Assembly (NCBI RefSeq): GCF_001675285.1
Contig: NZ_LSGQ01000007.1
Span: 248,001-312,000 of the forward strand
Origin: Elizabethkingia miricola
GTDB taxonomy: Bacteria > Bacteroidota > Bacteroidia > Flavobacteriales > Weeksellaceae
Direction: 5' to 3'
DNA length: 64,000 nucleotides
In this document: positions 7,818 through 61,856 of the stretch, piece by piece
How positions within the stretch are numbered: position 1 is the stretch's first letter
Layout of the letters: every line of letters begins with the position of its first letter
The notes under the pieces: model-generated
Seen by the model: only the letters and a program-made list of their open reading frames with translations
The model's database searches: none
Told to the model about the DNA's origin: nothing
Translations under genes and position numbers: made by a program

Positions 7818-9911
7818 ATGAGAAAATTATTTTTTTTCATAGCCTGTGTTGTATGTATCAGCATAAGTAAGGCCAATGAAATAGATCTTATTAAACACAG
7901 GATTGCCGAATGGCACTGGGAAAAGGGAGTAGATAAAGCTGCCACAGTACTGAATGCACAAAAATGGGAGCAGACATTACAAAGTAACCAACAATGGAAA
8001 GATGTGGATTATATTGATCCGGCTCCAAATGTATGGAAAGGTTTTGAGCATTTGAAGCGTGTCCATGAAATGACGGTTGCTTATACTGCACCATGGAGCA
8101 GTCTGAAGAATAATCCAAAAGTTTTCAAAGCCATTGAAAATGCTCTTGTCTACTGGAACAGAAATAAGCCTAAAAACAACAACTGGTGGTGGAACGAAAT
8201 AGAAGCGCCAAGAGTATTGGGCGTTATCCTTATTATGCTTAGTGAGAAGGATAACCAAAATAGGCTTTCCGGCGAGCTATTTGGAAATCTGGTAAAGCAA
8301 ATGGAATATAAACGCTATAAAGGTGATACAGGAGTAAATATGGCGGATTACGATACGCATATTTTCTACAGTGGATTAATCAATAATGATGAATCTCAAA
8401 TCCAAAGCGGACTGAATAATATTTTTTCTATTAGTAAACCAACGGTAAAAGAAGGAATTCAGTTCGATAATTCCTACGCACAGCACGATATCATGTTGCA
8501 CATCTTTGGTTATGGAACAGAATATCTGAAAGTAGAAACCTATATCGGTGCCATGGTGGCCGATACAAAGTTTGCCATGAAAGGAGAACAGTTACAGGTA
8601 TTCACAGACTTTATTACCAAAACTCTGATTCCTCAGATCAGAGGTCGTTATACCAATTCAACATCTTTTGGCAGGCAGATCTCACGGGAAAGCTTTACCG
8701 ATCTGGAATGGCTGGTTCCTTATCTGGAAAGTCTTATTGTAATGGACAAAATCAATACTCGAATTTATAAAGATGCTATATTACGTCTTGAAGGCAAGAA
8801 GAAACCGAATTATCGTATTGCAGAATTTCAGAAACATTATTGGAATACAGATTTTTCGTTTTATCAGGATAAAAAATATCAGTTCTCAGTTCGGATGTCT
8901 TCTAAATTTACAGAACAGGCAGAGACCAATCTAAACGGAGAAAACAAACTTGGCGGTTACCGTTCTATAGGCTCTTATTCAATATTACAGGACGGCACGG
9001 AGTATTTCAACATATACCCCGTATGGGACTGGAAGAAAATTCCGGGAACAACTACTTTGGATCAGTTACCGATTCCTGATACTTATTGTCTTACTCCCGG
9101 AGTGTCTGGTTTTGCTGGCGGAGTAAGTAACGGTAAGATAGGTGCATCTGCATTTATGCAAAATCAGTTTGGGGTAAAAGCTGAAAAATCATGGTTTATG
9201 TTTGAAGGTGCGGTTATTTGCTTGGGCAATAATATTTCAGCTGAAAGAGAAGGGAAAGTCTTCACAACTGTAGAGCAAAGTTTTTTCAAAGACCAAATGG
9301 CTTATCAGAATAATGAAGAAACTAAAAATATTGCAGCCGGACAGCTTATGAATAATACCGGAGAGCAGATGCTTATTCACAATAATACGGCTTATATTTT
9401 TCCGCAAAAGACAAATCTGAATATTAGTACACAGATTCAAAAAGGTCGCTGGAAAGATATTAATGACGTAGGCAGTGTTGAAGAAAAGAAAAATGCAGTA
9501 TTTAAAGTGTGGATAGATCATGGAGAAAAAGTGGATAAAGCATCTTATCAGTATATCATTATTCCGGGGGTACACCAACCTGCAAAAGCTAGAAAACTGG
9601 CAGATAATTTTATAATACAAAATCAGGAAAATGTGCAGTCTGTATATAATAAATCTGCTAATAAATTAATGGTGGTTTTCTTCAGACCTTCGGAAACAGA
9701 GATCAAAGGAATAAGAATAAAAGCAGATCAGGCCTGTGTTATATTAATTGAAAATCCGGGATCCAATAATCCGGAACTATATATAGCAGATCCCTCCCGA
9801 AAGGCCAGGGAAATTAATCTACAGTTAGGCGGAGATAAGATTAATCTACAGCTCCCTGTAGCCCTAGATTATGCAGGATCATCCGTTCACTATAAAAAAA
9901 CTAATCCATAA
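7818..9911 (+). CDS. Polysaccharide lyase family 8 (chondroitin AC lyase-like), first copy
   Basis: A 697-residue secreted lyase starting with signal peptide MRKLFFFIACVVCISISKAN. It aligns from memory along its length with Pedobacter heparinus chondroitinase AC (700 residues): an N-terminal alpha/alpha toroid with NNWWWNEIEAPR at about 115-126, then beta-sandwich domains. The catalytic set is conserved with a constant two-residue offset: H223, Y232, R286, R290 and E369, corresponding to H225, Y234, R288, R292 and E371. PL8 enzymes cleave chondroitin, hyaluronan or xanthan by beta-elimination; the aromatic NWWWNE patch and catalytic residues favour a glycosaminoglycan. It is followed 12 bases later by a paralogue and then ung, and faces mutS2. 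Exact specificity is not decided by sequence. Confidence 0.9.
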   Translation: MRKLFFFIACVVCISISKANEIDLIKHRIAEWHWEKGVDKAATVLNAQKWEQTLQSNQQWKDVDYIDPAPNVWKGFEHLKRVHEMTVAYTAPWSSLKNNPKVFKAIENALVYWNRNKPKNNNWWWNEIEAPRVLGVILIMLSEKDNQNRLSGELFGNLVKQMEYKRYKGDTGVNMADYDTHIFYSGLINNDESQIQSGLNNIFSISKPTVKEGIQFDNSYAQHDIMLHIFGYGTEYLKVETYIGAMVADTKFAMKGEQLQVFTDFITKTLIPQIRGRYTNSTSFGRQISRESFTDLEWLVPYLESLIVMDKINTRIYKDAILRLEGKKKPNYRIAEFQKHYWNTDFSFYQDKKYQFSVRMSSKFTEQAETNLNGENKLGGYRSIGSYSILQDGTEYFNIYPVWDWKKIPGTTTLDQLPIPDTYCLTPGVSGFAGGVSNGKIGASAFMQNQFGVKAEKSWFMFEGAVICLGNNISAEREGKVFTTVEQSFFKDQMAYQNNEETKNIAAGQLMNNTGEQMLIHNNTAYIFPQKTNLNISTQIQKGRWKDINDVGSVEEKKNAVFKVWIDHGEKVDKASYQYIIIPGVHQPAKARKLADNFIIQNQENVQSVYNKSANKLMVVFFRPSETEIKGIRIKADQACVILIENPGSNNPELYIADPSRKAREINLQLGGDKINLQLPVALDYAGSSVHYKKTNP

Positions 9912-9923
9912 TTATAACTCAAC

Positions 9924-12008
9924 ATGAAAAAACTCTTACTAATACTATGCTGCTTTATTTTTGTGGGATTTTATAAAGCTGATGAAATAGAGGTGATAAA
10001 ACAAAGAATTGCGGAATGGAACTGGTCTAATGATATCAATAGAACTGAAATTATTAAGAATGCACAGAAATGGGAGCAGATGTTACAGGCGGATCAACAA
10101 TGGCAGGATGTAGATTATAAAAATCCTACCCGTACAACATGGACTGCATTTCAGCATCTGAAAAGAGTAAAAGAGATGACCATTGCCTATACAGCTCCCT
10201 GGAGCTCGTTAAGAAATAATGAAAAAGTTTTTAAAGCTATTCAAAATGGATTACAATTCTGGAATACGGCTAAACTAAAAAATATCAATTGGTGGTGGAA
10301 CGAGATAGAGGCTCCTAGAACCATTGGTGTAATATTGATTATGCTGGAAAGCAATAATGGAAAACAATTGCCTGGAGAGCTTTTTAGCGGTTTGGTAAAA
10401 CAGATGGATTACAAGCGCACGAACGGGGTTACTGGTGTTAACCTTGCCGATTTTGATACTCATATTTTTTATAGTGGCTTGTTGAATAAGAATGAAGAAG
10501 AAATTCGGAAAGGATTAGAAAATATATTCTCTATTAATAAAGCAACGGTAAAAGAAGGAGTACAGTTTGATAACTCGTATGCCCAGCACGAAATTATGCT
10601 GCATATTTTTGGTTATGGAACAGAATACCTGAAAGTGGAAACTTACATTGGTGCTATGGTGACTGATACCAAATTCGCGATGAAAGGCGAACAGTTAAAA
10701 ACCTTTACCAATTTCATTACAAAAACATTGATTCCGCAAATCAGAGGACGTTATACCAACTGGACATCATTTGGGCGGCAGATTGCCCGTGAAGATTTTA
10801 CAGATATGAAATGGCTGGTTCCTTATTTTGAAAAGCTTATCTTAATGGATACGATGAATACAGGTGTTTATCAGGATGCTATTGAGAGAATTAACCAAAA
10901 GAAAAAATCAGATTTCCATATCACAGAACTTCAAAAGCACTATTGGAATACCGATTTTACCTTTTATCAGAACCCTGTTTATCAGTTTTCTGTAAGAATG
11001 TCATCCAGATATACCCAGCAAGCGGAAACAGATCTGAATGGTGAAAATAAAAAGGGAGGGAACCGTTCCATTGGTTCTTATGCATTATTGCAGGATGGTA
11101 CAGAATACTATAATATCTATCCGGTATGGGACTGGAAAAAAATCCCGGGAACGACTACACTGGAAAATTCCCCTTTACCGGATACTAAATATTTAACTCC
11201 CGGAAAATCTGTATTTGCAGGCGGGGTAAGTGATGGTAAAACCGGAGTGTCTGCATTTATGCAGGATCAGTTTGAAGTAAAAGCCCAGAAATCGTGGTTT
11301 ATGTTTGGAAGAGAAGTTGTTTGCGTAGGTAGCCAGATTTCTACGGATAAAGATGATGAGGTACTAACAACAGTAGAACAGAATTTCTTTAAAGATAAAG
11401 TTACTTACCGGAACTCTGTTGATAAATACGAAGTAAAAGAAGGACAGTTGGTAAATAGCAATGATCAACAGATTCTTTTACATCGGAATACAGCTTATAT
11501 ATTCCCGGAGAAAACTAATCTTACTATTTCTTCTCAGATACAGAAAGGAACCTGGAAAGAGCTGACTGAACTGGGGAGTACAGAAGAGAAACAATCAGCC
11601 GTATTCAAATTATGGATTAATCATGGCAAAAAAATAAATAATGGCAGTTATCAGTATTTTATTATACCTGGCATTCGTAATATGAACAGAGCTAAGAAGA
11701 CTGCTGCTGATTTTAACATATGGAACCAGAAAGATGTACATGCTGTGTATCAGGCATCGTCTAAAAAGCTAATGTTAGTTTTCTTCAGGCCGGCAGAGAT
11801 TGATGTGATGGGAAAGGTGATTAAGGCTGACCGTGCTTGTACATTACTGATCGAAAATTTGGAAGCACAAAACCCTGAAGTTTTCGTTTCCGACCCTTCA
11901 AGAAAAGAAAAAGAAGTAAATTTGGGGATCGGAAAAGAGAATATTCATATTAATCTGCCTACCGACAGAGCTTTTGCAGGCTCTTCGGTACATTATAAAA
12001 ATAAATAA
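9924..12008 (+). CDS. Polysaccharide lyase family 8 (chondroitin AC lyase-like), second copy
   Basis: A 694-residue paralogue of the preceding gene, alike along its whole length and clearly from a tandem duplication that has since diverged. Signal peptide MKKLLLILCCFIFVGFYKAD; the toroid motif INWWWNEIEAPR and catalytic residues H222, Y231, R285, R289 are kept, as is the QAETDLNGEN segment with the catalytic-site Glu. The C-terminal beta-domains end with DRAFAGSSVHYKNK. Both copies therefore look active. The differences are spread throughout rather than clustered, so a split in substrate preference (for example hyaluronan versus chondroitin sulfate) is possible but cannot be read directly. 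The 12-base gap before it and 5-base gap to ung suggest one transcript. Confidence 0.9.
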   Translation: MKKLLLILCCFIFVGFYKADEIEVIKQRIAEWNWSNDINRTEIIKNAQKWEQMLQADQQWQDVDYKNPTRTTWTAFQHLKRVKEMTIAYTAPWSSLRNNEKVFKAIQNGLQFWNTAKLKNINWWWNEIEAPRTIGVILIMLESNNGKQLPGELFSGLVKQMDYKRTNGVTGVNLADFDTHIFYSGLLNKNEEEIRKGLENIFSINKATVKEGVQFDNSYAQHEIMLHIFGYGTEYLKVETYIGAMVTDTKFAMKGEQLKTFTNFITKTLIPQIRGRYTNWTSFGRQIAREDFTDMKWLVPYFEKLILMDTMNTGVYQDAIERINQKKKSDFHITELQKHYWNTDFTFYQNPVYQFSVRMSSRYTQQAETDLNGENKKGGNRSIGSYALLQDGTEYYNIYPVWDWKKIPGTTTLENSPLPDTKYLTPGKSVFAGGVSDGKTGVSAFMQDQFEVKAQKSWFMFGREVVCVGSQISTDKDDEVLTTVEQNFFKDKVTYRNSVDKYEVKEGQLVNSNDQQILLHRNTAYIFPEKTNLTISSQIQKGTWKELTELGSTEEKQSAVFKLWINHGKKINNGSYQYFIIPGIRNMNRAKKTAADFNIWNQKDVHAVYQASSKKLMLVFFRPAEIDVMGKVIKADRACTLLIENLEAQNPEVFVSDPSRKEKEVNLGIGKENIHINLPTDRAFAGSSVHYKNK

Positions 12009-54881: not shown

Positions 54882-55040
54882 ATGAAAAAATTACTTAAGA
54901 AAGACTTGAAAAAAGTCAATGGTGGCGGCCCGCCTTTAGGAGGAATGGCATGTGTTTATTACGATCCGTATCTGAATAAGACAGTGGAAGGTATAACAGA
55001 CAGCAATGGTGTTTGTCAATGCGTAGTATGTGAATATTAA
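54882..55040 (+). CDS. Double-glycine leader peptide 1 of 5
   Basis: A 52-residue peptide MKKLLKKDLKKVNGGGPPLG continuing to MACVYYDPYLNKTVEGITDS and ending VCQCVVCEY. The leader MKKLxxxxLKxV ends with Gly14-Gly15, the classic double-glycine cleavage site used by C39-type bacteriocin ABC exporters. The core has four cysteines. It has no similarity to known antimicrobial peptides that I can see. It is the first of five tandem genes on the same strand; the spacer to the next is 10 bases. It is too short for the ORF track and was found by reading the sequence. Confidence 0.75.
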   Translation: MKKLLKKDLKKVNGGGPPLGGMACVYYDPYLNKTVEGITDSNGVCQCVVCEY

Positions 55041-55050
55041 ATAATTTGTC

Positions 55051-55215
55051 ATGAAAAAACTTCAAAGATCACATTTAAAAACAGTAAAAGGTGGCGGGAA
55101 TGTTTGTGATGAATTTCCAAAAAAATATCAGCACGTTTCATGTAGCGAATATTTTAATATTCCACCTAAGTATTCACATTGTGTACTTGTTGATGTAGAA
55201 TGCTTTCCTGAATAA
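55051..55215 (+). CDS. Double-glycine leader peptide 2 of 5
   Basis: A 54-residue peptide, MKKLQRSHLKTVKGGGNVCD then EFPKKYQHVSCSEYFNIPPK and on to HCVLVDVECFPE. Leader and Gly14-Gly15 as in the other four; the core has four cysteines with loose spacing and two Pro-rich turns. The core differs from its neighbours, as often found in arrays of precursor peptides that share an exporter but have different products. Start ATG 55051; stop TAA 55213-55215, followed by 21 bases to the next ATG. Function unknown. Confidence 0.75.
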   Translation: MKKLQRSHLKTVKGGGNVCDEFPKKYQHVSCSEYFNIPPKYSHCVLVDVECFPE

Positions 55216-55236
55216 TCAACCCAAATCTTAATTATT

Positions 55237-55479
55237 ATGAAAAAATTAAATCGTAGCTTACTCAAGCATGTAAGTGGCGGCGGCCGTGTTGCATATGCGT
55301 TCTGTCTAATTGATCAACCTTGTCCACGTCCTCCAGGCTTAAGAAATGTAGGTTATTGTGAAGGTGATTATTGTTATTATAATACTCCAGATGGTCCTGG
55401 TAATCCAGGTGGCGGATGCAATGAGCCTACAAGATTCTGTACAGATGGAGAGGTGGGTTGTGGATGTGTTTATGTATAA
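55237..55479 (+). CDS. Double-glycine leader peptide 3 of 5, eight-cysteine type
   Basis: An 80-residue peptide, MKKLNRSLLKHVSGGGRVAY, with Gly14-Gly15-Gly16 ending the leader and a core with eight cysteines, finishing CNEPTRFCTDGEVGCGCVYV. Pro- and Gly-rich segments (PCPRPPGLRNVG, GPGNPGGGCNEP) lie between. It is paralogous to the next peptide: the leader is almost identical and the last 20 residues are similar. Eight cysteines suggest four disulfides or metal binding. The function is not known. Preceded by AATCTTAATTATTATG, a weak A/T-rich leader similar to those before the other four. Confidence 0.78.
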   Translation: MKKLNRSLLKHVSGGGRVAYAFCLIDQPCPRPPGLRNVGYCEGDYCYYNTPDGPGNPGGGCNEPTRFCTDGEVGCGCVYV

Positions 55480-55499
55480 ATCTTATAATCTAAATCATT

Positions 55500-55745
55500 A
55501 TGAAAAAACTAAATCGTAGTTTATTAAAATATATTAGCGGTGGGCAACGTATTAGTTATGCAATTTGTCTGGAAGGCTATTGTCCGCCACCTCCTGTACC
55601 AGGTAAAAAGAGCTATTGTGTTGGACGAAATTGTTATTACGAGTTGCTACCAGGGAACGGAAATGGCGGTGGTGGTGGAACTTGTAATGAACCTACAAGG
55701 ATCTGTGCAGAAGGAGAAACAGGTTGCGGATGTGTCTACTCCTAA
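55500..55745 (+). CDS. Double-glycine leader peptide 4 of 5, eight-cysteine type
   Basis: An 81-residue paralogue of the previous gene: MKKLNRSLLKYISGGQRISY, core with eight cysteines and tail CNEPTRICAEGETGCGCVYS, which matches CNEPTRFCTDGEVGCGCVYV closely. The central part has diverged and carries GNGNGGGGGTCNEPT. Conservation of the leader and the terminal cysteine block indicates a recent duplication and selection on both. A frame-shifted overlapping ORF at 55540 is spurious. The spacer to the fifth peptide is 45 bases. Confidence 0.78.
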   Translation: MKKLNRSLLKYISGGQRISYAICLEGYCPPPPVPGKKSYCVGRNCYYELLPGNGNGGGGGTCNEPTRICAEGETGCGCVYS

Positions 55746-55790
55746 CCTATTTTCCAATTTTTAAATGAAAACCAAATAAAAAATATCATT

Positions 55791-55940
55791 ATGAAAAAGT
55801 TAGAAAGAAGCTCATTAAAAGCATTAAAAGGAGGTAATCCAAGACCTTCACCAGACGGAAACTGCCCTCCGGGATGGGGATACTGTAGTAACGGGATGTG
55901 CTATAGTGCTTCACAATACTGGATGTGCAAAGATAATTAG
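55791..55940 (+). CDS. Double-glycine leader peptide 5 of 5
   Basis: A 49-residue peptide, MKKLERSSLKALKGGNPRPS with a core PDGNCPPGWGYCSNGMCYSA and a fourth cysteine in QYWMCKDN. Leader ending Gly14-Gly15 as in the other four. The spacing C-P-P-G-W-G-Y-C-S-N-G-M-C is similar to knottin-like or defensin-like loops but the identity is not established. It ends the array; the menC gene converges 48 bases downstream. Function unknown. Confidence 0.75.
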   Translation: MKKLERSSLKALKGGNPRPSPDGNCPPGWGYCSNGMCYSASQYWMCKDN

Positions 55941-61448: not shown

Positions 61449-61521
61449 GGTTTCTTAGCTCAGTTGGTAGAGCAATGGATTGAAAATCCATGTGTCCCTG
61501 GTTCGATTCCTGGAGAAACCA
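61449..61521 (+). tRNA. tRNA-Phe (GAA), copy 1
   Basis: A 73-base tRNA. Acceptor stem GGTTTCT/AGAAACC, D-arm GCTC/GAGC, anticodon stem ATGGA/TCCAT with loop TTGAAAA (anticodon GAA), T-loop TTCGATT. The discriminator is A and CCA is not encoded (CA follows). The T-stem is CCTGG/CCTGG, giving a U-U mismatch at position 51-63 and four Watson-Crick pairs. A short hairpin terminator follows. It is identical to copy 2. Confidence 0.97.
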
Positions 61522-61783: not shown

Positions 61784-61856
61784 GGTTTCTTAGCTCAGTT
61801 GGTAGAGCAATGGATTGAAAATCCATGTGTCCCTGGTTCGATTCCTGGAGAAACCA
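61784..61856 (+). tRNA. tRNA-Phe (GAA), copy 2
   Basis: Identical to copy 1 across all 73 bases, including the U-U mismatch in the T-stem and lack of an encoded CCA. The promoter, distance to the tRNA and terminator are all similar to those of copy 1, so the whole 330-base unit was probably duplicated. The upstream 61522-61783 region between copies holds no gene. The ORFs overlapping both tRNAs are spurious. Confidence 0.97.

Follow-up and report, generated by a model that had tools for sequence, protein, structure and literature searches.

A tandem array of five double-glycine leader peptide genes in Elizabethkingia miricola and its probable route of export and oxidation

Five consecutive short genes of Elizabethkingia miricola encode peptides with double-glycine (GG) leaders and cores containing four or eight cysteines. 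On balance, we favor the reading that these are precursors of unmodified (non-RiPP), bacteriocin-like peptides, which would be exported by a C39 transporter encoded on contig C1, oxidized by a VKOR-thioredoxin fusion, and probably directed against competitors. In the proposed mechanism, the array peptides would be made in the cytoplasm, each with a 15-residue leader; the C1 transporter together with its HlyD adaptor would cut after Gly14-Gly15 and export the peptide in one step; and the fusion would oxidize the peptide outside the cytoplasm, with every core cysteine paired. A single constant exporter and oxidase would thereby serve at least 40 dispersed and changing precursors, the array included, and the mature peptides, like bacteroidetocins, would probably target bacteria that compete with the producer and are likely related. 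The order of these steps is taken from what is known of peptidase-containing ABC transporters and bacteroidetocins.

The array lies in a window of 64,000 nucleotides, the whole stretch of DNA that was analyzed (positions 248001-312000 of contig C7; the genome totals 4.29 Mb on 33 contigs). The five small ORFs claimed by a first-pass annotation were reproduced at the same coordinates, each on the plus strand and each with an ATG start (Table 1). The leader pattern MKKL...L9K10...G14G15 was present in all five peptides, and the reported cysteine counts of 4, 4, 8, 8 and 4 were also recovered. A third glycine occurs in the leaders of genes 1-3, and precursors 3 and 4 are 62% identical in alignment. 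The annotation had considered three of the five genes too short for ordinary ORF calls; this was mistaken, because common gene callers accept ORFs of 49-54 aa. No core family was found for the array peptides in Pfam and NCBIfam, and AlphaFold models of precursors 3 and 5 were of low confidence (pLDDT 62 and 45). An Rfam scan of the array gave no credible match, and scans for sigma-70 promoters and terminators gave no signals above those of shuffled sequences.

Table 1. Features of the array and of the export triad (window positions, except those marked L033, which refer to the stretch of contig C1 holding the triad)
Feature	Position	Strand	Remarks
OMP_b-brl_3/TonB-type beta-barrel, 713 aa	52656..54797	+	ends 84 nt upstream of array
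GG-leader precursor 1, 52 aa	54882..55040	+	ATG; leader 1-15, core 4 Cys
GG-leader precursor 2, 54 aa	55051..55215	+	ATG; core 4 Cys
GG-leader precursor 3, 80 aa	55237..55479	+	ATG; core 8 Cys; tandem paralog of precursor 4
GG-leader precursor 4, 81 aa	55500..55745	+	ATG; core 8 Cys
ACCAAATAAA 5' element	55771..55780	+	before precursor 5; common to dispersed precursor genes
GG-leader precursor 5, 49 aa	55791..55940	+	ATG; core 4 Cys
VKOR + thioredoxin fusion, 504 aa	L033 7304-8815	-	
HlyD adaptor	L033 8881-10182	-	
C39 + ABC transporter	L033 11044-13242	-	

Sequence comparison confirmed the five ORFs as real genes. Genes 1, 2 and 5 were intact at the same site in all three congeneric genomes, and gene 3 was present at the array site in two of the three. 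Gene 4 was found as a decayed remnant in one congener (G069) and was absent from the other two; a contig search with precursor 4 matched a single relative. The related genomes keep the leaders, whose loss the first-pass annotation had named as a sign against its reading. In the congener comparison, dN/dS of the array genes was 0.02-0.19 where it was computable and above zero: 0-0.10 for precursor 1, 0.02-0.04 for precursor 2 where dS was above zero, and 0.08-0.19 for precursor 5 (three congeners each). Pooled pN/pS values for array genes were 0.041/0.355, 0.019/0.100 and 0.097/0.407. These values argue strongly for purifying selection on the array genes. Between species, precursors 1 and 2 were nearly invariant, and turnover was seen in the 8-Cys pair 3/4. 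The idea that the ORFs are chance or decayed sequences, for which their shortness and the remnant of gene 4 in one relative might speak, is contradicted by the strong purifying selection, the conserved leaders and the even cysteine counts; dN/dS refutes it for genes 1, 2, 3 and 5, and we give it practically no credence.

As the annotation had noted, a beta-barrel gene precedes the array on the same strand, separated by a gap of 84 nt. The barrel was intact beside the array in the one congener that was fully read, and its 3' end aligned directly before the array in the other two. Such adjacency, conserved in congeners, would suit a single unit of barrel and array, for example a ligand or immunity pair, but when 20 other stretches of the same genome were searched by tblastn, one barrel homolog was found, about 1.5 kb from a precursor group, and it was the only one near another precursor locus; we regard a common unit as improbable. 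On the same search, the barrel was rejected as a general partner of precursors, and neighbors at the other precursor loci examined were unrelated. The barrel is a conserved neighbor of the array and probably not a functional part of it. The listed ORFs of the window included no recognizable exporter, modifying enzyme or immunity gene, in agreement with the first reading. Elsewhere in the window, two similar tandem proteins of 697 and 694 aa (7818-12008) looked like polysaccharide lyases by eye, and two tRNA genes with identical Rfam scores (61449-61521 and 61784-61856) lie near the window end.

About 36 more genes of the same kind occur in the genome, so the array does not stand alone. Under a permissive threshold, the NCBIfam leader model NF047798 (leader_Chryseo) matched the genome at 44 places, and 15 of these passed its cut-off. 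Reading precursors from the DNA gave 41 GG-leader, cysteine-containing precursors, namely 40 from the census, from which one chance ORF with 2 Cys (L044) had been removed, and one at L033 7101-7244. The cysteine count was even in all 41 cores (4, 6 or 8); an apparent 7-Cys precursor has one of its cysteines in the leader. Among the precursors of relatives, 2 of 50 had an odd count, and one of these was the decayed precursor 4. From their sequences, the array peptides are predicted to form disulfides.

The genome encodes two C39 (PF03412) transporters, so that a C39 exporter, which the annotation had expected, does exist. One of them, the C39-ABC transporter of 733 aa on contig C1 (553.9 kb), is unlinked to the array. 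An HlyD adaptor, for which a search had been proposed, adjoins it, and a VKOR-thioredoxin fusion completes a triad (Table 1). GG precursors were located before, between and after the triad genes; the 20-kb stretch around the triad contained seven GG-leader cysteine peptides, of which six lie within the triad or next to it. The annotation's expectation of double-glycine precursors for a C39 exporter was supported by a C39/HlyD/VKOR-thioredoxin cluster with GG precursors and by leaders kept in relatives. In the four Elizabethkingia genomes, an M20-family peptidase gene (L033 5375-6904) also adjoins the triad; it was not found in the loci of other genera.

In the whole genome, PF07884 (VKOR) matches this fusion alone. 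The six cysteines of the fusion (178/192, 259/262 and 371/374) were invariant in all nine homologs compared, and relatives of 24-43% identity were found across Bacteroidota. In relatives, PF03412 matches that begin at position 26-28 correspond to the N-termini of VKOR fusions (G100, G050, G093 and G002); because the match begins there, the N-terminal domain of the fusion is C39-like without the catalytic cysteine region. In a PDB sequence search with the fusion, no chain matched at E 0.1 or below. Of 18 loci examined across several genera, 17 yielded the triad, and the remaining one (L108) is truncated by a contig end. Outside the genus, identity of the C39 transporter was 79-89%, mostly 86-88%, compared with 81-88% for glutaminyl-tRNA synthetase. 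Against genomes of genus g17, which we infer to be Chryseobacterium from the name of the leader model, the transporter showed 86-89% and the synthetase 87-88%, whereas HlyD (63-68%) and the VKOR fusion (37-42%) drifted faster. By this comparison, the C1 transporter appears about as conserved as a housekeeping protein, glutaminyl-tRNA synthetase.

Of 119 genomes of the family, 21 carry a close VKOR fusion (E below 1e-100), and the leader was found in every one of these; it was found in 5 of the remaining 98 (Fisher 5.7e-19). These counts ignore phylogeny and use a leader model evidently built on this clade. Fusion-bearing genomes contained 359 of the 369 leader matches, and none of the 35 genomes in which some C39 occurs without a close fusion has the leader. 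Of the five exceptions with a leader, two (G003 and G117) hold fragments of the fusion and one (G052) a distant fusion. Contrasts were also seen within genera: leader and fusion are both missing from two reduced genomes of the same genus, and G118 has both while the other C39-bearing genomes of its genus (g7) have neither the leader nor a close fusion.

The second C39 transporter, on contig C27 (about 102-110 kb; L034 8291-16011), is encoded in a lanthipeptide-type cluster together with LanB N- and C-terminal proteins and LanC. It adjoins LanB/LanC and thus belongs to a lanthipeptide system; judging from this setting, it is probably dedicated to a lanthipeptide. No GG cysteine precursor was found in that stretch. 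Since the C27 transporter has a C39 domain too, the array might be exported by it as part of the lanthipeptide cluster, but LanB and LanC are encoded beside it, few Ser/Thr are available for dehydration in array cores 1 and 5, and the presence of the leader follows that of the VKOR fusion and not that of C39 transporters in general. We consider this route very improbable, even more so than a unit with the barrel. No lanthionine synthetase linked to the array was recognized among the window ORFs, LanB/LanC being at C27. RiPP modification, at which the annotation had hinted, found no backing: an MNIO partner was rejected, as PF05114 had no match in the genome, and so was a GG_samocin radical-SAM partner, whose model TIGR04148 reached 25.9 bits against a cut-off of 300, on another contig.

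Because the C1 exporter is unlinked to the array, its pairing with the five array substrates is inferred, from the co-occurrence, the similarity of the leaders and the elimination of the lanthipeptide transporter.

The Elizabethkingia precursors have a common 5' element, CCAAATAAA. Among 40 precursors, 17 have CCAA(A/T)TAAA no more than 32 nt from the start, compared with 1 of 144 larger ORFs (p 3e-12) and 1 of 103 AT-rich controls (p 3e-10), although the enrichment test is not independent because the motif was first noticed in the same upstream regions. Genome-wide, ACCAAATAAA-N3-14-ATGA had 15 matches, of which 13 lay before GG precursors, one before a longer unrelated protein and one before a 4-codon ORF; a reversed-pattern control gave 3 matches. 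The CCAAATAAA element was absent from the loci of other genera (0 of 19), and a TAnnTTTG promoter box showed no enrichment. The Rfam cis-regulatory RNA DUF805b (RF02914) is a second element: in a scan of loci that had been selected for precursors, a GG precursor starts 17-21 nt downstream of each of the 11 matches; at one match a closer out-of-frame ATG is also present. These matches lie before precursors of Chryseobacterium-type relatives (L100, L101, L102, L107, L109, L110, L111 and L112) and before one precursor of the E. miricola genome (L047 2891-2923). A functional link between DUF805b RNA and GG-leader peptide genes is possible.

The main alternative keeps the route of export and oxidation unchanged and takes the peptides as signals or as structural or protective products, such as quorum signals or protease inhibitors. 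It would fit an exporter conserved like a housekeeping enzyme, the near invariance of precursors 1 and 2 between species (bacteriocins usually diversify), the very many peptides per genome with no immunity gene, and the common 5' element, which suggests a regulon. However, no receptor or two-component system was evident beside the precursors, and the way in which the 8-Cys genes diverge and change in copy number looks like an arms race. We judge this alternative unlikely, while giving it far more weight than the others. For the bacteriocin-like reading, housekeeping-like conservation of the exporter is unusual and may hint at a core role. The array has no evident immunity gene, which fits bacteroidetocins, likewise without an evident one. 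By analogy with these, the array products may be antagonistic.

A broader proposal, to which we attach slightly less than an even chance, is that dozens of dispersed disulfide-rich peptides form a regulon with one housekeeping-conserved exporter/oxidase, common 5' elements (CCAAATAAA, DUF805b) and a core role. Dozens of anonymous short ORFs per genome would fall into one testable pathway, with the clean prediction that a single exporter knockout abolishes the whole secreted set. The VKOR-thioredoxin fusion would gain a likely role and the orphan DUF805b RNA a peptide context. The precursors would also supply many candidates for disulfide-rich antibacterial peptides of Gram-negative origin, and the array peptides themselves are candidate weapons or signals between bacteria.

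The class is already known but poorly described, since NCBI models its leader as "bacteriocin-like protein"; no description of the system was found in the openly accessible papers searched. NF047798 is an 18-position leader model with a GG end that matches precursors throughout the relatives. Against its curated cut-off of 23.5 bits (whole-protein score), array peptides 2 (20.3 bits, E 4.6e-4) and 5 (14.1 bits) both fell below, and peptides 1, 3 and 4 gave no match; the array leaders are a short form of 15 residues. The model covers the leader alone and is silent on exporter, oxidase, cysteine rule and 5' element. The features of class II bacteriocin-like systems found here are the GG leader in all five peptides (G14-G15), a C39 exporter, albeit unlinked, and a thiol oxidoreductase beside the exporter.

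Among tested systems, that of the bacteroidetocins comes closest, a likeness judged by organization. Their production requires a region with a C39 transporter and a thiol oxidoreductase, whose deletion attenuates toxin activity; the peptides are cut after GG, contain 4 Cys and kill relatives, with no evident immunity gene (PMC6671954). BamA is the target of bacteroidetocins (PMC8546649). Both systems have a 15-residue GG leader, a C39 ABC exporter and a Bacteroidota host, and the mature bacteroidetocins, with 4 Cys, have the cysteine number of the predicted mature array cores 1, 2 and 5. The dedicated thiol oxidoreductase of bacteroidetocins has its counterpart in the VKOR-thioredoxin fusion beside the exporter. 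Bacteroidetocin loci, however, are compact four-gene units with one peptide, whereas the array system includes an HlyD adaptor, and its precursors, which have 4, 6 or 8 Cys, are dispersed and number in the dozens.

Two other systems share single features. The VKOR-thioredoxin fusion of Synechococcus combines both domains in one membrane protein with paired cysteines, as does the Elizabethkingia fusion, which has in addition an N-terminal degenerate C39-like domain and a gene linked to a peptide exporter. Prochlorosins, which are lanthipeptides of a LanM enzyme, come from many diverse, unlinked precursors that have their leader in common and share one processing system. The array system would resemble them in having one system for many cargos and differs in that no modifying enzyme is linked and only oxidation is predicted.
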